Assembly: GCA_015055505.1 (NCBI GenBank)
Contig: SVIB01000003.1
Location: 1 to 64,000 of the forward strand
DNA: 64,000 bases
Reading direction: 5' to 3'
Source: Clostridiales bacterium
GTDB lineage: Bacteria; Bacillota; Clostridia; Christensenellales; Borkfalkiaceae
The notes below the pieces were generated by a model that saw only the letters and a list, made by a program, of their open reading frames with translations, was not told the origin of the DNA and did not search any database. Both the position numbers and the translations under genes were made by a program. Every line of letters begins with the position of its first letter. The first letter of the stretch is position 1. This document shows positions 1-8,291 of the stretch, in pieces.

Positions 1-2
1 AT

Positions 3-410
3 GAAAGATTAGAGTACTATACTATTAAAGTTAATAGCTCTCCAAAGGATTTCGTTGAATTCTTTGACCCTGATTCTAAAGAATATAAAACAGTTGACCA
101 TTATGAACCTTCTAAAACTTACCCGGGCTTTGATGCAAACCATGCGATAATGTCAATTTATGTATCGGATTTGTACGAAAAAGAGTTTACGGGAGAGTAT
201 GACCCGAAAACAAACAAAGAAAAAGCAAAACGAGGTAAGTTGATTCCGGATGGTATCAATGTTTGTGCTCCTGCTATATGGTTCCCAAAAACAAATAATT
301 ATGAGGAATCAGCCACTACATATTATGTAAGTAATGATTATTTGCGTAGAGAGGCTAAACAGGAAGAAGACGATATAATAGAATTCGGTGAGGGAACTAC
401 AAATGAGTAA
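3..410 (+). CDS. Z1-domain-like protein, C-terminal part (5' end outside window)
   Basis: The frame is open from base 3, so the gene begins upstream and the ATG at 150 in the ORF track is internal. About 135 C-terminal residues are visible. A segment reading INVCAPAIWFPKTNN followed by TTYYVSNDY resembles the end of Z1 proteins (PF10593), which I recall as a hydrophobic 'I.FP' strand followed by 'Y.VN'. Most of the support is context: Z1 genes sit directly before DUF4420 and AIPR genes in restriction-like and anti-phage operons, exactly the order found here. Z1 proteins are helicase-like ATPases; their Walker motifs would lie outside the window and cannot be checked. The stop overlaps the next start by 8 nt, so translation is probably coupled. 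Confidence 0.5.
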   Translation, partial: ERLEYYTIKVNSSPKDFVEFFDPDSKEYKTVDHYEPSKTYPGFDANHAIMSIYVSDLYEKEFTGEYDPKTNKEKAKRGKLIPDGINVCAPAIWFPKTNNYEESATTYYVSNDYLRREAKQEEDDIIEFGEGTTNE

Positions 411-1374
411 AACTGTTTTTGAAAAATGGATAGAAGTAGAAGAAAAAAGTGTTGATGATAACTATATTCTAGAGTATTATTTATCTCAAAAAACAAAAAC
501 GAGAATATATTTTAGTTTGATTGATTCTTCAAAGGTTATATATCTTGAATTTTCTAAAGAAGCTTTAAGTTCTTATGATTGTCCAGATTTGAAAGGGCTA
601 GACATTAGTGTTCAAGATGTAAATGTTATCTCACCAGAGAAGAGATACATTGTAATTAAGAATGCTACTAATAACAATGAAATATTTTTAGCTTTTTCCA
701 GCTCTCTTTGTGACGCGTTAATAGATGTTGATAGTTATTTTGAGACCTTTAACGTGCTTAAGGCGGTAATAAAAGAATACAAAGAATATTTTGCTAATCC
801 TAATAAAATATTATCTCAACAAGAAGAGCAGGGCCTTTGTGCTGAATTATTGCAATTAAAATATTTGGTTGAAAAGTTTGGAGAAAATATTGTAATCAAT
901 TGGCAAGGGCCAAGAAGAAATAAAAGGGATTTTGTTTTTGACAAGACTGCGTTAGAAGTGAAATCAACAATGTCTCAAACGAATACAAATGTTTTGATTT
1001 CTAATGAGAATCAGCTTGATTGTAATTATCCTGATACGTTGAAGGCATTGTACTTAAAAGTATTTATTTTTGAATCGATGGACGATGGTTTTACTGTTAT
1101 TGATTGCGCAAATCAGCTTCTTGATTGCGTTCAGGATGTTAACTTAAAAAGCGTAATAGTTGCAAACTTGTTGAAATTAAAGGTTAATATTAATACGTAC
1201 AAGCCAGTTTGTAAATTTTCTTTACAAGGAACTCGTTTTTATGAAATAGTTGATGGATTTCCCAAAATAACAAAAGCTATTTTATCGAGTGAAATATTTG
1301 ATGTTAAATATAGATTAAAATTGGATGCATTAAAACAATTTGAAACAAAAGAGGACGAAGTGGTTTATGAATAA
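403..1374 (+). CDS. DUF4420 / PD-(D/E)XK motif nuclease-like protein
   Basis: 323 residues. The ATG at 403 is preferred over the GTG at 388 because GAGGG lies about 9 nt upstream of it and it gives a tight ATGAGTAA overlap with the previous gene. The core shows QQEEQGLCAELLQL, then a W.GP element, then RDFVFDKTALEVKST. The last is a D...ExK arrangement typical of PD-(D/E)XK nucleases and of the DUF4420 family (PF14390), including its 'W.GP' signature. The family is found in restriction-like operons with Z1 and AIPR proteins, which supports the call. The role is probably DNA cleavage during phage defence; the substrate is unknown. Codons are A/T-ending (GAT, AAT, TAT), unlike the core genes beyond 10 kb. 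Confidence 0.75.
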   Translation: MSKTVFEKWIEVEEKSVDDNYILEYYLSQKTKTRIYFSLIDSSKVIYLEFSKEALSSYDCPDLKGLDISVQDVNVISPEKRYIVIKNATNNNEIFLAFSSSLCDALIDVDSYFETFNVLKAVIKEYKEYFANPNKILSQQEEQGLCAELLQLKYLVEKFGENIVINWQGPRRNKRDFVFDKTALEVKSTMSQTNTNVLISNENQLDCNYPDTLKALYLKVFIFESMDDGFTVIDCANQLLDCVQDVNLKSVIVANLLKLKVNINTYKPVCKFSLQGTRFYEIVDGFPKITKAILSSEIFDVKYRLKLDALKQFETKEDEVVYE

Positions 1375-3358
1375 TTTTAATAAAGAGCTAATAAACAAAA
1401 TCAAATTATTTCAGTCGGAAGAAAATAATATTGATGTTGTAGAAGAAAAGTATTATTTTATCAAATATGTTTTTGCAAATTTGGAGTCTTTAGACGCTGA
1501 GTCATTAGATATTTGTGAAGAAGAGTTTTATGGATTAAAGTGTAATGTTGATGCTTACTTTTTTGACGAAGATAATTCTACGTATAATTTATATTTGGGG
1601 ATTTACAATGACCAAAATGATGATAATGCGACATTGTCAAAAGAGGCTATTACAAAAGAATATGATAAAATAATTAATTTTGTAAAAAAGATTGTTGACG
1701 GAAGATTCTTTGAATTCGGTGAAGATTCCTTTACATATGAGATAGCGGATGCTGTGTATAAGTCGTTAAAAGATAAGGAGTTGGTTGTTAACGTATTCAC
1801 TAACTATAACGTTCCAAGCGAATTACAAAAAGACGATATTGAAGAGATTTCGGGGCAAAGAGTTTCTTTTAGAACTTATGACTTAGAAGATTTAGAGAAT
1901 AAATTTGGTCAACTTAACAACGATACGTTTGAATTGGATTGTCGTGAAAAATTTGGTGAGGAATTATCTGCTGTTAGAATTTCATCCACGCCTGACTTTG
2001 ATGTTTACATGTGTTCGATGAAGGGATTATGGCTCGCGACACTATACAAAGAAGACAGTATAAGATTGCTTGAAGCCAATGTTCGTTCGTATTTAAAAAG
2101 GACAGCGAAGGTTAATGCTGGGATTTTGGATACAGTAAAAAACAATCCGGAGGAATTTGTAAGCTTTAACAATGGTATTTCGGCTGTTGCCACTGAAATT
2201 AAATATGATAAAGATATTGGGCCGGCAAATCTAGCTAAAATTAGAAGTATTGTAAATTTCCAAATTGTAAACGGTGGACAAACAACGGCCACGTTGTATG
2301 AGTGTTTTAAGGACAAGCTTTTTGATGAATTAAAGAGAATAATTGTTCCTGTTAAGTTAACTGTTGTTAAAAATATTAGTAATTCAGAGTCTTTGATAAG
2401 AAATATTAGTGTTTTTTCAAACACTCAAACTGCTATCAAAAAATCTGACCCTCCGTCAAACTTGCCATATTATATTATGATGAAGCAATTGTCAAAGAGT
2501 TGTTTGTCTAATGATATAAATGGTAGTTATTTGTGTTATTTTGAACGCACAAACGGTGAGTATGATACTGAATATAGAAGAAATAACGGAACGAAAAAAT
2601 TTACTAATACTAATCCAAAAGATAAAAAGTTTACGAAGATTGATTTGGCTATTGCTGTAAATTGTTGGGAACAGTTGCCTTTTAAGGTATGTGAAGGACG
2701 CGAAAAGAACTTTACATTATTCAATAATACAGTTAAAAATCAATTAATTGACCCTGATGATACGTATTTTAAAAACGCATATGCGTGTATTGTTATGTTT
2801 AGAAAGCTTGATAAAATTGCAAGGAAATTAAAGCTTTCTTACAAGAGTAACGTTGTTTCATATACTTTGAGTTTAATTTCTCTTATTTACGGGAAAAAGC
2901 TTGACTTGTTAAAGATTTGGGAGCTTAAAGACCTTACTCCTGAATTAAATGATGTTGCTTATAATTTACTTCCGAAAGTCCACCAAGTTATAGAAAACAC
3001 GCCTCCTGAACATCCGGAAGCGCGTATGTGGGCGAGAAAAGAGAAGTGTTGGGATATTGTGAAAACATTAACTTGTGATTTTGCAATAAATACCAATTCT
3101 CAAGTTGTTGAATTTTTCCCGAAAAATGAAGCGCTTGTCTACATTGATACTGACGAAAACTTTTTTAATTCCTTGGTATGGATGAAGCTTTTGCTTTGGG
3201 ATAATAAATATAAAATTTTGAACAAGCAACAACAAAAAATGGCTAAATATTTGCGTTCGATGGCAGATAATCCAAACGTGAAATTAACATTAAAGCAAAA
3301 AGACTTTGGTAAAGATATATTCCTTTTTGCTGTAAAATCAGGATTCCAATATAAATAA
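1367..3358 (+). CDS. AIPR family protein (abortive-infection phage resistance)
   Basis: 663 residues from the ATG at 1367, which overlaps the previous stop by 8 nt. The track start at 1340 is a TTG with no ribosome site. Residues around 255-345 carry the AIPR hallmarks: VSFNNGISAVATEI, then NFQIVNGGQTTATLY, then SVFSNTQTAIKKSD. This is the NNGI / NGGQT / NTQ pattern of PF10592. AIPR proteins are associated with abortive phage infection (AbiR-type loci) and with Z1/DUF4420 operons; their biochemical activity is not settled to my knowledge. The N-terminal 200 residues are acidic and less recognisable. The gene sits third in the visible operon and is followed after 14 nt by a gene with a strong ribosome site. 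Confidence 0.85.
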   Translation: MNNFNKELINKIKLFQSEENNIDVVEEKYYFIKYVFANLESLDAESLDICEEEFYGLKCNVDAYFFDEDNSTYNLYLGIYNDQNDDNATLSKEAITKEYDKIINFVKKIVDGRFFEFGEDSFTYEIADAVYKSLKDKELVVNVFTNYNVPSELQKDDIEEISGQRVSFRTYDLEDLENKFGQLNNDTFELDCREKFGEELSAVRISSTPDFDVYMCSMKGLWLATLYKEDSIRLLEANVRSYLKRTAKVNAGILDTVKNNPEEFVSFNNGISAVATEIKYDKDIGPANLAKIRSIVNFQIVNGGQTTATLYECFKDKLFDELKRIIVPVKLTVVKNISNSESLIRNISVFSNTQTAIKKSDPPSNLPYYIMMKQLSKSCLSNDINGSYLCYFERTNGEYDTEYRRNNGTKKFTNTNPKDKKFTKIDLAIAVNCWEQLPFKVCEGREKNFTLFNNTVKNQLIDPDDTYFKNAYACIVMFRKLDKIARKLKLSYKSNVVSYTLSLISLIYGKKLDLLKIWELKDLTPELNDVAYNLLPKVHQVIENTPPEHPEARMWARKEKCWDIVKTLTCDFAINTNSQVVEFFPKNEALVYIDTDENFFNSLVWMKLLLWDNKYKILNKQQQKMAKYLRSMADNPNVKLTLKQKDFGKDIFLFAVKSGFQYK

Positions 3359-3372
3359 AGGAGATTCTTATA

Positions 3373-3933
3373 ATGTCAATGATAATAGACCATGAACTTA
3401 ATTACTTGAGATTTGACGTTCCAAACTCGGAAGCAAATTTAAATGCACAGCATTATGGCGGGAAACCAAGAACGGTTGGTGCTTATTATATGAGCGAAAA
3501 TAGTGATGCGTGTAGAGAGTTTTTAAGCCAAATGCAAGGTAAATATTATTTTGATGTTAATTTGTGTTTAAAAAATGCGCAAGAAGTTATTTCTTTTCTA
3601 AAAAAGAATAATTATGCTGATGCATATCGAGACAAATTAATTCCACAAGAGAAGCAAATTGAGGCATTGCAATGGTTTATATCATCTGGCGAATACTTTT
3701 ATGAGATTTCAGCTCCAACAATTAATGAAAATGCTAAGTATTTAAAGTTGGACAACAATGATAGCTTTATTACTGGAATTAAAACATTAATTTTAGGTGA
3801 CTTATGCAGCCTTTATTTCAAAAAAATTGGTACTGATGGATATGTGATATATTTGGATAGGTCTCCAAAATTTGATGAGATTATAGAAAATAATACGATA
3901 CTTAAGTGGATACAAAAGAAGGAAGAACTATGA
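3373..3933 (+). CDS. unrecognised protein, defence operon (186 aa)
   Basis: I do not recognise this family. It is a soluble protein of 186 residues without membrane segments or cysteine clusters, beginning after a clear AAAGGAG site. It has an N-terminal stretch with RFDVPNSEANLNAQHYGG and a middle part rich in aromatic residues. It lies between the AIPR gene and another unknown and overlaps the latter by 4 nt (ATGA), so the two products are probably made in fixed ratio. The context suggests a defence-operon component. No catalytic motif is evident; it could be a structural partner of the 240-residue protein that follows. Confidence 0.7.
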   Translation: MSMIIDHELNYLRFDVPNSEANLNAQHYGGKPRTVGAYYMSENSDACREFLSQMQGKYYFDVNLCLKNAQEVISFLKKNNYADAYRDKLIPQEKQIEALQWFISSGEYFYEISAPTINENAKYLKLDNNDSFITGIKTLILGDLCSLYFKKIGTDGYVIYLDRSPKFDEIIENNTILKWIQKKEEL

Positions 3934-4652
3934 TGTCTTTTGATAATATAATTTTTGAAGGAAAAAGAAGATATTACATTGAAGATTTAACTCAACGGGA
4001 TTATTCTTTGGAAAATACAACTCCATATACCTTTGAAATACTAGGGAATGTTATTGAAGAACACGCTTGGGGAGAGCTGCTAAGAGCAACAACAATGACC
4101 TTATTAGAAAGCTTTCCGGAGTTTGAAGAAAAACTTTATTCTTTTAGATGCCCTTGGAGCAAGGCGGTAATGTTTCGACCGGACGGTGGAACGAATTACA
4201 AGTTGGTTTCTTCAAAGATATATATCAACTGTAATCACACAGCTTTACACTCTTGCTGGTTTTTGCAAGATTTGCTTGATTTTTTCAACATTGATAAATC
4301 ACAAGTAAAACTTGTTATACATAGGTCTTCGGCGGCGGAGCCAAAAGAAGTGAAAGAATACATAGAGGAAAGATTTAAAAAAGATTTTGTAAACTTCCTT
4401 GAGTTGGCTTATGGTAAAGATGCTGAATATGCAAAAAAAGTGCTTGACAATATAGATAAATACCTGAATCCCCGTTTGGCGAAGATGTCTAAGAGTTACA
4501 ATAGTTTTTTCTTGTTTGATGATGTGCCAACCTTTAGCAATTATGCAAAAAAAGTTAAAGAAGTTGTGTATAAGGATTTTCAAACTAATGAAAAAGCCCT
4601 TAAGGTGTTAAACAAATACATAAAGTATTTAATTGAATTCTACAAAATATAA
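3930..4652 (+). CDS. unrecognised protein, defence operon (240 aa)
   Basis: The start is placed at the ATG at 3930 (ATGATG), inside the previous stop and 3' of GGAAGAA. The track start at 3906 would bury it in the upstream gene. The product is 240 residues, soluble, with an aromatic-rich N-terminal half (YYIEDLTQRDYSLENTTPY) and a helical, Lys-rich C-terminal third. Histidines and cysteines cluster around residue 95-105 (NCNHTALHSCWF), which could bind a metal, but I see no named motif. I do not recognise the family. Its fixed place between two other unknowns in a defence operon suggests a complex subunit. Confidence 0.7.
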   Translation: MMSFDNIIFEGKRRYYIEDLTQRDYSLENTTPYTFEILGNVIEEHAWGELLRATTMTLLESFPEFEEKLYSFRCPWSKAVMFRPDGGTNYKLVSSKIYINCNHTALHSCWFLQDLLDFFNIDKSQVKLVIHRSSAAEPKEVKEYIEERFKKDFVNFLELAYGKDAEYAKKVLDNIDKYLNPRLAKMSKSYNSFFLFDDVPTFSNYAKKVKEVVYKDFQTNEKALKVLNKYIKYLIEFYKI

Positions 4653-4663
4653 AGGAGTCAAAA

Positions 4664-5092
4664 ATGTTACAAACATATAATTTAGCAGGAACAGTCATTT
4701 ATTATGATTCGGACAAAAAGGTTATAGCAAGATATCCATCAAAATCAAATTTATTATTAAAAGGCGCTGACAACAGCCTTTATTTTGGTATGACTTCAAA
4801 TAGTGATGTTGATAAGATTTTTTGCAAGATTTTTAGTGTTTCAAATATTAAAAAAATTCAAGACTTAAAATATGATTTAAGTTTTTGTGGAGAAATTGTA
4901 GAGGTTTTTATTAATATCAATGCGGAAGGTCAAATTCAGGTTCGTTTTAATAATGATGGAACCATCGGAAGGATTTTAAACAAGTATGAAGATGCCGAAC
5001 ACGAAAAGATTGATTTTACTAAAATGTTGTTAGTTGTAGATTTTTCCCACAATGAAATAAGGGTAAAAAATCCAGCGATATTTAAGTTGTGA
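4664..5092 (+). CDS. unrecognised small protein, defence operon (142 aa)
   Basis: 142 residues, preceded by an AAAGGAG site and starting 11 nt after the previous stop. The sequence alternates short hydrophobic strands and turns (AGTVIYYDSDKKVIARYP, VEVFININAEGQIQVRF), which suggests an all-beta fold. There are no membrane segments or obvious active-site residues. The family is not recognised. It ends 4 nt before the Nudix start, so it is part of the same transcript. It may be an OB- or barrel-like binding subunit, but that is only inference from strand pattern. Confidence 0.65.
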   Translation: MLQTYNLAGTVIYYDSDKKVIARYPSKSNLLLKGADNSLYFGMTSNSDVDKIFCKIFSVSNIKKIQDLKYDLSFCGEIVEVFININAEGQIQVRFNNDGTIGRILNKYEDAEHEKIDFTKMLLVVDFSHNEIRVKNPAIFKL

Positions 5093-5096
5093 TAAA

Positions 5097-5528
5097 ATGA
5101 TAGAAGTTGTTGCGGCGCTTATATGGGATAAGGATAAGTTTTTGATTTGCCAAAGGCCTGCTAATAAAGCAAGAGCTCTTTTATGGGAGTTTGTTGGCGG
5201 AAAGGTTGAAGAAGGCGAAACGAAGGAACAGGCTTTAATCCGAGAGTGTAAAGAAGAATTAAATATTACGCTAAACGTCGGGGATATTTTTATGGAAGTT
5301 GTCCACGAGTATCCCGATATTACCGTGCATTTAACCTTGTTTAATGCAACAATAGCCGAAGGTGTTCCACAAAAACTAGAACATAACGATATCAAATGGA
5401 TAACACCGGCTGAAATTCCAAACTACAATTTCTGCCCAGCCGATGTAGAAATATTAAAAAAAATTATTAGATACAAGACATATAATAGGGAAGGAGACAA
5501 TTATGAGCGAAACAAAATTAACATCTAA
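5097..5528 (+). CDS. Nudix hydrolase (MutT-like)
   Basis: 143 residues with a Nudix box at about 39-61: GKVEEGETKEQALIRECKEELNI fits GX5EX7REUXEEXGU except that the last Gly is Asn. The N-terminal VVAALIWDKDKFLICQRP is typical of MutT / 8-oxo-dGTP diphosphatase-like members. Family members hydrolyse nucleoside diphosphates linked to another moiety; the substrate here is unknown. Its position inside a defence operon, overlapping the following GHKL ATPase gene by 26 nt, suggests a role tied to that system, such as processing a modified nucleotide or signal. The C-terminal tail beyond residue 125 is probably just the overlap region. Confidence 0.88.
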   Translation: MIEVVAALIWDKDKFLICQRPANKARALLWEFVGGKVEEGETKEQALIRECKEELNITLNVGDIFMEVVHEYPDITVHLTLFNATIAEGVPQKLEHNDIKWITPAEIPNYNFCPADVEILKKIIRYKTYNREGDNYERNKINI

Positions 5529-7485
5529 GGGATTGAAAAATTCGCTGAAAAATTATTCAATTTCGGAAGCAATTTCGGAATATATTTGGAATGGATTTGA
5601 CGCAAAAGCGACGATGGTCGAGGTTAAAGAAGATAAAAGTCTACTTGATTCTACGATGTGTATCTATATAAAAGATAATGGAACGGGGATTAATAGAAAT
5701 CAATTGAATGAAAAATTTGAAAAAGCTTATGAATCCGAAAAGCATGTAAAAACAAAATTAAATGGAGCAACAATTAAAGGCAAGAAGGGTGTTGGTAGAT
5801 ATAGCTTTTATAATACTTGCTATTTGGCAAAGTGGGAAACGGTTTATCAAGATGGTGAAACCCGGAAAAAGTATACTATTACTATTGAAGCACAAAATTT
5901 AATAAAATTTGATGTATCTGAAGAAGTTGAGACAACGGAATCGACCGGTACAGTTGTGACTTTGTTTTTAAATCAAGGTGTTGCTGTCGGCGATTTAAGA
6001 GAGGATATAAAATTGTCTTGTGCATGGTTATTAAAATTATATGATGATAAACGTATAATAATAGTTAATAATGAACAAATAGACTGTTCCGATTTAATAT
6101 ATTCTTGTGAAACAAGAGAAAATAATTTCTCCGATTTTCATGTAAAAGCCACAATTTGTGTTTGGAAGAGAAAACTACATGACGAATACTCGAAATACTA
6201 TTATTTAAATTCTAAAGAAGAAGTTTTGTGTAAAGAAAACACTACCTTAAATAATAAAGGGGATAACTTTTATCATAGTATATTTATTTCGTCTAATTTG
6301 TTTGATGAAAATTTTAGTTTTGAGTCCGATATGGAGGATGATAATTTAATAGGATTTAAAACAAAAAAATCAAAGGAATTCAAGAAGTTAAAAGAATTTT
6401 GCGATATGTTTTTGTATGAAACGAGAAAGCCGTTTATAAGAGCTTATTCAGAGGAGTTTATTGGAAAATTAAAAGATAAAAAAGTATATCCAAAGTTTGA
6501 TAAAAATAATGCGATTGATCGTTTCAAGGAAGAACAATTAGATATTCTTATATCTAATATTTATTATTTTGTGCCAAAAGTTTTTACATCGCTGACGGTG
6601 CTTCAACAAAAAACTTTAGTTCGAATGTTTGAATTAATTCAATCTTCTGGAGAAGTAAATAATTTATTTAAAATATTGGATGGTGTAGTGGACTTATCAA
6701 AAGAGGAACGTGCAGAGATGGCGGATCTTCTTGAAAAAACTGAGTTATCAAATGTGATAGAGATGTTAAATTTGGTTGTTTCAAGATTACAAGCAATCAA
6801 AGATTTTGAAACCCTTGTGTTTGATAAGAATAGATATACTAATGAAGTAGACCATGTTCAAAAGTTTATTGAACAACATTATTGGTTTTTTGGGGAGCAA
6901 TATCATTTGGCAACAGCTGAAGAGCCTAATTTTGAAGAAGCATTACGAGCTTATTTAAATTTTGCATCCGATAGTTTTTATAAGAAAGGTGAAATACATA
7001 TTGATAGTAAAGATAAAAATAAACAAATGGATATTTTTGCTATCCAATCGGTTATGGCAGGTGAAGTCAAAAAATGTATTGTTGTTGAATTAAAGAGACC
7101 AAGTGTAACGTTATCAAGCAAAGAACTTGGTCAAATAAAGAAATACTATGGTGTTATAAAGGATGATAGTAGATTTCAAAGTGAAAAAATAGAATGGGAT
7201 TTTATTTTGGTTGGAAATAAGTATAATGACGAAATAGTTGGAGAAATTAAAAATAGTACTCATCATGGTATTTATAATTGTGTTTATAAAGTAGGAAATT
7301 GTACTATTGTAGTAAAAAGTTGGAGTGATATTCTTACTGAACTGAAGATGAATATGCGCTATTTAGAAGAAAAGCTTAAAATTAAATATTCAATGCTTTG
7401 TGACAAAAGTACGTTAAGTTCGGATGATATTATTAAGGAACAAGAGAATTCAATAGCGACTATGCCAAAGGCAATGATAAGTTAA
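5503..7485 (+). CDS. GHKL ATPase fused to a Shedu/DUF4263-like PD-(D/E)XK nuclease domain
   Basis: 660 residues, starting after AAGGAG. The N-terminal ATPase of the GHKL (HSP90/MutL/MORC) fold is clear: E26..N30..D33 in EYIWNGFDA, then DNGTGI at 58-63, then GKKGVGRYSF at 93-102. The middle (about 150-440) is helical. The C-terminal part (about 450-610) has HYWFFGEQY, an Asp in KQMDIFAI (about 510) and VVELKRPS (E529, K531) followed by a helix containing QIKKYYG. This is the D...ExK layout of Shedu-type DUF4263 nucleases. The likely role is an ATP-gated nuclease of the defence operon. It differs from MutL proper, which lacks this nuclease domain. The gene ends the operon. Confidence 0.82.
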   Translation: MSETKLTSKGLKNSLKNYSISEAISEYIWNGFDAKATMVEVKEDKSLLDSTMCIYIKDNGTGINRNQLNEKFEKAYESEKHVKTKLNGATIKGKKGVGRYSFYNTCYLAKWETVYQDGETRKKYTITIEAQNLIKFDVSEEVETTESTGTVVTLFLNQGVAVGDLREDIKLSCAWLLKLYDDKRIIIVNNEQIDCSDLIYSCETRENNFSDFHVKATICVWKRKLHDEYSKYYYLNSKEEVLCKENTTLNNKGDNFYHSIFISSNLFDENFSFESDMEDDNLIGFKTKKSKEFKKLKEFCDMFLYETRKPFIRAYSEEFIGKLKDKKVYPKFDKNNAIDRFKEEQLDILISNIYYFVPKVFTSLTVLQQKTLVRMFELIQSSGEVNNLFKILDGVVDLSKEERAEMADLLEKTELSNVIEMLNLVVSRLQAIKDFETLVFDKNRYTNEVDHVQKFIEQHYWFFGEQYHLATAEEPNFEEALRAYLNFASDSFYKKGEIHIDSKDKNKQMDIFAIQSVMAGEVKKCIVVELKRPSVTLSSKELGQIKKYYGVIKDDSRFQSEKIEWDFILVGNKYNDEIVGEIKNSTHHGIYNCVYKVGNCTIVVKSWSDILTELKMNMRYLEEKLKIKYSMLCDKSTLSSDDIIKEQENSIATMPKAMIS

Positions 7486-7580: not shown

Positions 7581-7615
7581 TGTAGTAATAAAATCTAAAT
7601 AGGATAGGACAAGTT

Positions 7616-7828
7616 ATGGTTACTCGTAAAGAAGATACGTCGAAAAGAGTAGCAAGACGTAAATACGAAGAAAAGAATAAAGAATTACGCAAAGAGAAAA
7701 ACGCAAACTTTCAAACGATGATTCCAAGAGATTTGTTTGAAGAAATCAACGCGTTTTTAACCGAAAAGGGTATGACGAAAGTAGATTTCATTAAAAAAGC
7801 CTACGAAATAATGAAAAAAGAGGGTTAA
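7616..7828 (+). CDS. small ribbon-helix-helix-like DNA-binding protein
   Basis: 70 residues. The first 30 are highly basic (KRVARRKYEEKNKELRKEK). The rest, NFQTMIPRDLFEEINAFLTEKGMTKVDFIKKAYEIM, has the strand-helix-helix layout of Arc/MetJ-type ribbon-helix-helix proteins, with the polar strand 'FQTMIP' and a second helix starting after 'GMTKVDF'. It probably binds DNA as a dimer. A consensus promoter lies just upstream together with a palindrome, which fits self-regulation. It is co-transcribed with the peroxiredoxin gene 4 nt downstream; no functional link between the two is established. An antitoxin of a lost pair is an alternative. Confidence 0.65.
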   Translation: MVTRKEDTSKRVARRKYEEKNKELRKEKNANFQTMIPRDLFEEINAFLTEKGMTKVDFIKKAYEIMKKEG

Positions 7829-7832
7829 AATT

Positions 7833-8291
7833 ATGTTAGAAGTTGGAATGAAAGCGCCGAATTTTACGTTGCCCGATAAAAACGGGAAGTTGGTTTCTTT
7901 GTCTGATTTTCTCGGCAAGAAAGTGGTTTTATATTTTTATCCAAAGGACAATACGCCTGGTTGCACAAGACAGGCGTGTGCGTTTGCGCTTAAAAATAAA
8001 GAAATCGAAAACAAAAACGCGGTGGTTATCGGCATTAGCAAGGATAGTGTGAACTCGCATTTGAATTTTGCAACCAAGTATAATTTGCCGTTTGTTTTGC
8101 TTTCGGATAGCGAACTTTCGGCTATTCAAGCGTATGGCGTTTGGCAAGAGAAAAAGTTGTACGGCAAAGTGAGTATGGGCGTTGTGAGAACGACGTTTTT
8201 AATCGACGAGCAAGGCATTATACAAGCGATTATGCCCAAAGTAAAACCCGACAATAATGCCGACGAAATCTTAGCATTGTTGGAAGATTAA
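7833..8291 (+). CDS. bcp: thioredoxin-dependent peroxiredoxin, BCP/PrxQ type
   Basis: 152 residues, the usual length for BCP. The peroxidatic cysteine lies in DNTPGCTRQACAF (about residue 47), with a second cysteine five residues later as in PrxQ enzymes with an intrahelical resolving Cys. The N-terminal VGMKAPNFTLPDKNGKLVSLSDF and the YFYPKDNTPGCT block are family signatures. The enzyme reduces hydrogen and organic peroxides using thioredoxin in the cytoplasm. It is followed by a hairpin that looks like a terminator. Codon use is intermediate between the island and the core. Confidence 0.92.
   Translation: MLEVGMKAPNFTLPDKNGKLVSLSDFLGKKVVLYFYPKDNTPGCTRQACAFALKNKEIENKNAVVIGISKDSVNSHLNFATKYNLPFVLLSDSELSAIQAYGVWQEKKLYGKVSMGVVRTTFLIDEQGIIQAIMPKVKPDNNADEILALLED

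Follow-up and report, generated by a model that had tools for sequence, protein, structure and literature searches.

In the type-3 operon described by Iyer et al. (2008), a superfamily II (SFII) helicase carrying a distinctive C-terminal domain is combined with a nuclease of the restriction endonuclease (RE) fold, a DNA methylase, and Vsr, and the figure that shows them also names AIPR; the joining of a GHKL ATPase to an RE-fold nuclease was named paraMORC3 in the same work (PMC2292703). VcSduA of Vibrio cholerae shares the latter organization, protects alone, and loses its activity upon mutation of either domain (PMC12137116). We read the SFII helicase of the type-3 operon as the Z1 protein. 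In this study, we analyzed 64,000 nucleotides of a Clostridiales bacterium (contig SVIB01000003.1, positions 1 to 64,000; hereafter the window), which open with eight genes, g1 to g8, encoding the C-terminal part of a Z1-like helicase, a DUF4420 protein, an AIPR protein, three orphans (g4–g6), a Nudix hydrolase, and a GHKL ATPase fused to a nuclease. The original prediction had taken them for one defence operon in which a five-gene module, g4–g8, extends a Z1-DUF4420-AIPR core. Our analysis instead favors, with a probability of about 0.8, a patchwork, in which defence cassettes acquired independently of one another are lined up head to tail at a hotspot, with a 70-aa gene and Bcp as its right border.

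Layout of the locus and recurrence of its core

The open reading frame calls agreed with the predicted layout, in which eight plus-strand genes at positions 3–7485 are joined by overlaps or gaps of no more than 14 nt; AGGAG-like ribosome sites lie 5' of g4, g6, and g8. The proposal that the stretch was acquired also stood. Its GC content (30.9% in 1–7485 vs 37.8% in 8292–64000) is the lowest of any 7.5-kb segment in the window, the others ranging from 33.9% to 41.2%. In contrast, the absence of a common 15-bp repeat, put forward as further evidence of an island, carried no weight, the commonest 15-mers occurring just 3–4 times across the 64 kb. The window starts where contig C52 starts, in an assembly of 1.6 Mb (92% complete, 58 contigs). 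This contig is taken to belong to its genome because the genus mates G708 and G721 share 90% (SecA) and 95% (Bcp) identity with it.

The recurrence of the right-hand genes was surveyed within 8–10 kb of 116 other AIPR loci, namely, 80 from GTDB genomes (the best 80 of at least 592 candidates), 26 viral loci, and 10 from plasmids or the same phylum. Proteins of the g4, g5, g6, or g8 type were found in none of these neighborhoods, and some Nudix gene in 2 of the 116. The co-occurrence count, which the original prediction had itself named beforehand as capable of refuting a five-gene module on the core, thus went against that module, and the Nudix gene and g8 are better described as separate hotspot cassettes. 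Among the best 80 genome loci, the partners of AIPR were Dcm (72/80), Z1 and DUF4420 (69/80 each), GHKL (66/80), and Vsr (47/80), and the full set was also seen in related loci from plasmids and same-phylum genomes. Since Dcm was placed upstream in 35 of these 80 loci and downstream in 37, an upstream Dcm past the contig edge of the window is plausible. Profile matches to g8 in 26 of the 80 loci were rejected as a cross-reaction of the common ATPase domain with a GHKL protein of ~490 aa, BLASTP yielding one partial ATPase match only. In one Z1-DUF4420-AIPR locus (L020:1567-5264), we read from the sequence an HhH-GPD glycosylase-like protein between Dcm and the GHKL gene, which might replace the T:G repair done by Vsr elsewhere.

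At the locus itself, the Z1 (C-terminus only), DUF4420, and AIPR genes stand adjacent in the order of MutL-Z1-DUF4420-AIPR (MZA) systems. The scores of g2 against MzaD (78 bits; equivalog cut-off 420) and of g3 against MzaE (266 bits; equivalog cut-off 1050) mark the core as a divergent relative rather than an MZA equivalog, and g3 shared at most 33% identity with any full-length AIPR found. Directly upstream of g2, with a 23-nt overlap, g1 gave no Pfam match, as the Z1 domain proper is cut off at the contig edge; its C-terminal "FPk..Y.v.N" motif aligned with the C-termini of 92 Z1 proteins, at 14 bits only. To recover the left end, the rest of the assembly was searched for Z1 and Dcm, neither of which was found, and for the helicase that partners the Nudix gene in relatives, which gave a sub-threshold match only. 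As judged from profiles and gene order, the left part is a divergent member of the MZA-like/MORC-paraMORC restriction operons, as had been proposed.

The probable hotspot and its roving Nudix gene

The separate arrival of g8 was indicated by a near-empty site in a related genome (G972, locus L272), which matched window positions 5092–5464 and 7613–8289 with 14 nt between the two matches, where the window has 2,148 bp comprising g8 and ~130 bp before the 70-aa gene. This site demonstrates insertion of a paraMORC3/Shedu-type gene between the Nudix gene and the 70-aa-Bcp pair, and the alignment places g8 as that separate insert. In G733 (L222), the slot of g8 holds other cargo, PDC-M46AB and PDC-M45, and a type I restriction-modification (R-M) system lies upstream of the Nudix gene. 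The 70-aa gene is conserved beside Bcp in both L222 and L272. Bcp is 97–98% identical in G733 and in G739; in the latter, from another genus, AbiEi-AbiEii is followed by one 191-aa gene and then by the 97%-identical Bcp (L228:10301-13160), so that Bcp also recurs as a neighbor of defence cargo. As the identities of Nudix (80–93%) and Bcp (up to 98%) exceed that of SecA between the window genome and these related genomes (~56–75%), the genes move laterally.

The prediction of a Nudix hydrolase for g7 was borne out by the Pfam match (Table 1) and by PADLOC PDC-S07 (3.1e-47, 157.6 bits, residues 1–126, the full Nudix domain); scores against NudG and PRK08999 were 110 and 119 bits, and the Nudix box, GKVEEGETKEQALIRECKEEL, was read directly from the sequence. 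When g7 was searched in 398 genomes of the same bacterial family and the context of the best matches was fetched, close copies were found to be 80–93% identical, most of the closest lying in other genera, and copies with ~76–93% identity directly adjoined diverse defence operons (L222, L224, L226, L231, L272, L274, L276, L277, and L282). Thus, in G733 the Nudix gene stands 2 nt from the type I R-M HsdR and 6 nt from PDC-M46AB, which is followed by PDC-M45, the 70-aa gene, and Bcp, while in G972 the order is PDC-S41 helicase, Nudix, 70-aa gene, and Bcp. GmrSD and JetABCD (Wadjet) overlap the Nudix gene in G737 and G728, respectively; in G710 it lies directly 5' of HamA-HamB (Hachiman); and AbiO/Nhi (G834, G797), PDC-M45A (G802), and SRA-HNH (G804) stand 7, 24, and 29 nt away from it. 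A defence gene lay within 30 nt of the Nudix gene in 9/20 loci at ≥74% identity vs 1/31 less similar loci (Fisher p = 4e-4), the 74% cut having been picked after the data were seen. Among the less similar loci, the main PADLOC match was to E1-like enzymes (6/31), which we read as housekeeping ThiF-type proteins.

The DNA common to the closest copies begins no more than 5 nt from the ATG, in copies extending that far, and ends at window positions 5453–5472; the shared unit is therefore essentially the coding sequence. A PDC-S41 helicase was 98% identical in two genera, with the Nudix gene directly after it in one (L272:2886-5036) and a GmrSD gene between the two in the other (L224:1-1458). A pairing of the Nudix gene specifically with Dcm was dropped, since its partners are diverse. 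Elsewhere, a more distant relative of the Nudix gene is preceded, at a distance of 103 nt, by a SIR2-Argonaute protein of 1019 aa (L308:1815-4871), and a 79%-identical Nudix gene is followed by a GHKL ATPase that matches MzaB weakly and starts 117 nt downstream (L279:3556-4863).

The fused ATPase-nuclease, the orphan genes, and rival readings

Alongside a phage-profile match (phrog_6203, 7e-65), g8 was found to retain both the ATPase residues (E26, N30, D33, D58, G60, G62) and the C-terminal E-D-ExK nuclease residues (E465, D510, E529, K531, Q544), and it thus has the GHKL, S5, and RE-fold domains that paraMORC3 requires. Its N-terminal half was predicted to adopt an Hsp90/MutL-like fold (model pLDDT 78), and the fold search was dominated by Hsp90/MutL, with nothing on the nuclease part. 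The predicted GHKL ATPase and PD-(D/E)xK nuclease were upheld, and the Shedu label stays tentative, for the match to Pfam SduA_C (DUF4263; E 0.0016, 19.1 bits) is below the cut-off of 27 bits and a sequence search for a Shedu structure matching g8 found none. Since this match is suggestive only, we say that g8 may work like VcSduA and assign no Shedu membership. Its plasmid relatives come without AIPR, beside Dcm and LlaMI, an ISP R-M enzyme, or a helicase, or alone. By its architecture, g8 appears to be an already described kind of stand-alone defence protein. A second HATPase_c_3 protein (630-aa frame), possibly MutL, is encoded on the same contig just past the window (G000:C52:66754-67023).

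No family was found for g4, g5, or g6 in Pfam, PADLOC, NCBIfam, or PHROGs. Relatives of g4 and g6 were absent from plasmids (tblastn), viral contigs or scans, and all fetched loci; those of g5 were absent from ~695 same-order or same-phylum genomes, plasmids (tblastn), and viral contigs, and a g5 pattern scan over 85,462 species returned nothing. Single-sequence hidden Markov models (HMMs) of the three at maximum sensitivity likewise matched none of the fetched loci, and the AlphaFold model of g5 from its single sequence (pLDDT 41) was not usable. Of the right part, which had been announced as undescribed, only g4–g6 still merit the term, whereas the architecture of g8 has been described (PMC2292703; PMC12137116) and the Nudix protein corresponds to PDC-S07.

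In the patchwork that we favor, unit 1 would be the right-hand portion of a restriction system of the MZA-like kind, whose GHKL ATPase and Dcm (often with Vsr) are expected farther left, in DNA missing from the assembly. The methylase would, by analogy, mark self DNA, and the GHKL/helicase/nuclease/AIPR set would attack unmarked DNA. Unit 2, g4–g6, may serve unit 1 as an accessory or, if not, form a three-gene cassette of its own acting as a small system. Unit 3 would be the Nudix gene found beside many defence operons, whose family and Nudix box point to (d)NTP pyrophosphohydrolysis. Unit 4 would be g8, between the Nudix and 70-aa genes, in which, as in VcSduA, ATP-driven GHKL dimerization may gate a nuclease clamp. 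The tight spacing would then reflect a common transcript and not one machine.

Several points weigh against this patchwork: the spacing, including the 26-nt overlap of g7 and g8, is what would be expected of a co-evolved operon; g4–g6 fit no unit that can be assigned from the data; with the left end missing, unit 1 is seen only in part; some of the AIPR loci break off at a contig edge, which limits the non-recurrence; and the relatives are draft metagenome-assembled genomes in which mis-binned short contigs could inflate apparent transfer, the 140-kb and 245-kb contigs of G733 and G739 being safer. A single new extended MZA-type system with g4–g8 as functional subunits would match the single strand, the gaps of ≤14 nt, and the common low GC content, but we consider it very improbable, given that the combination is absent from all the AIPR loci surveyed, that the Nudix gene and g8 are met in other places that lack the core, and that L272 has the site without g8. 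A narrower proposal, in which only the Nudix gene and g8 are independent and g4–g6 are accessory subunits of a divergent Z1-DUF4420-AIPR system, is a real possibility, somewhat short of an even chance: g4 starts 14 nt after AIPR, g4–g6 overlap or abut one another, the core itself is divergent, and other AIPR loci carry assorted unknown genes downstream of AIPR, although even the most sensitive HMMs revealed no recurrence of g4–g6 in the survey. The patchwork carries a warning in turn, namely, that tight spacing need not mean one system, as cassettes at a hotspot can mimic a co-evolved operon.

As for the Nudix gene, it has close to an even chance of being a passive housekeeping gene that marks the insertion hotspot and has no part in defence, in line with its more distant orthologues, which stand alone or in housekeeping contexts, and with a 73%-identical plasmid copy beside peptide deformylase. 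Against such passivity, the gene moves across genera as a unit of coding-sequence size and directly adjoins at least seven kinds of defence gene, and in a survey of Streptococcus suis PDC-S07 co-localized with RM type IV in 23/23 occurrences (PMC12813430). A limited literature search found no paper testing the function of PDC-S07. We think it rather unlikely, yet worth stating, that the Nudix protein is a transferable helper of DNA-targeting immunity, which would hydrolyze modified or scarce (d)NTPs and thereby block protected phage DNA or starve replication, boosting any nuclease system it joins. Such a role, if true, would explain why a near-identical gene is met at R-M, GmrSD, SRA-HNH, Hachiman, Wadjet, AbiO/Nhi, and MZA-like loci. 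That unrelated immune systems have so similar a small nucleotide hydrolase in common hints at a helper function of a general kind. This roving gene, and not the claimed module, is the lead to follow.

Table 1. Features at the left end of the window.
Feature	Position	Strand	Basis
g1: Z1-type SFII helicase, C-terminal 135 aa, cut by contig edge	3..410	+	position and weak C-terminal match
g2: DUF4420, PD-(D/E)XK nuclease-like, MzaD-related	388..1374	+	PF14390 8.4e-41
g3: AIPR protein, MzaE-related; probable true start ATG 1367	1340..3358	+	PF10592 1.7e-69, AIPR_N 2.6e-12
g4: orphan, 186 aa	3373..3933	+	without family
g5: orphan, 248 aa (GTG 3906) or 240 aa (ATG 3930, 4-nt overlap with g4)	3906..4652	+	
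g6: orphan, 142 aa	4664..5092	+	without family
g7: MutT/NudG-like Nudix hydrolase, mobile cassette of coding-sequence size	5097..5528	+	NUDIX_4 5e-24, PDC-S07
g8: GHKL-S5 ATPase fused to PD-(D/E)xK nuclease, paraMORC3/VcSduA architecture	5503..7485	+	HATPase_c_3 1.5e-17
Segment with g8 and ~130 bp, missing from near-empty site in related genome	5465..7612		L272 comparison
70-aa Arc-like protein, hotspot right border	7616..7828	+	weak Arc-like PHROG matches
Bcp-type peroxiredoxin, hotspot right border	7833..8291	+	AhpC-TSA 3e-42

Comparison with described systems

With MZA (MzaABCDE) and the type-3 MORC-paraMORC operons, the locus shares a Z1-like C-terminus, DUF4420, and AIPR in canonical order and spacing. 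It differs in that the contig starts inside Z1, leaving any GHKL, Dcm, and Vsr partners out of view; in that the GHKL of g8 is of a different type from the MutL/GHKL-like ATPase of MZA; and in the three orphan genes behind AIPR and the MzaD and MzaE scores far under the cut-offs.

Like VcSduA, or Shedu type I-D (PMC12137116), and paraMORC3 (PMC2292703), g8 is a single protein having an N-terminal GHKL ATPase and a C-terminal PD-(D/E)xK nuclease with conserved catalytic residues, a likeness drawn from architecture. It departs from Shedu type I-D in its SduA_C score and in lying within a multi-gene transcript.

Lastly, g7 matches the PADLOC candidate PDC-S07 over the full domain and sits in a defence island; whereas PADLOC lists PDC-S07 as a single-gene candidate, in the bacterial family of the window this Nudix gene directly adjoins many different systems.

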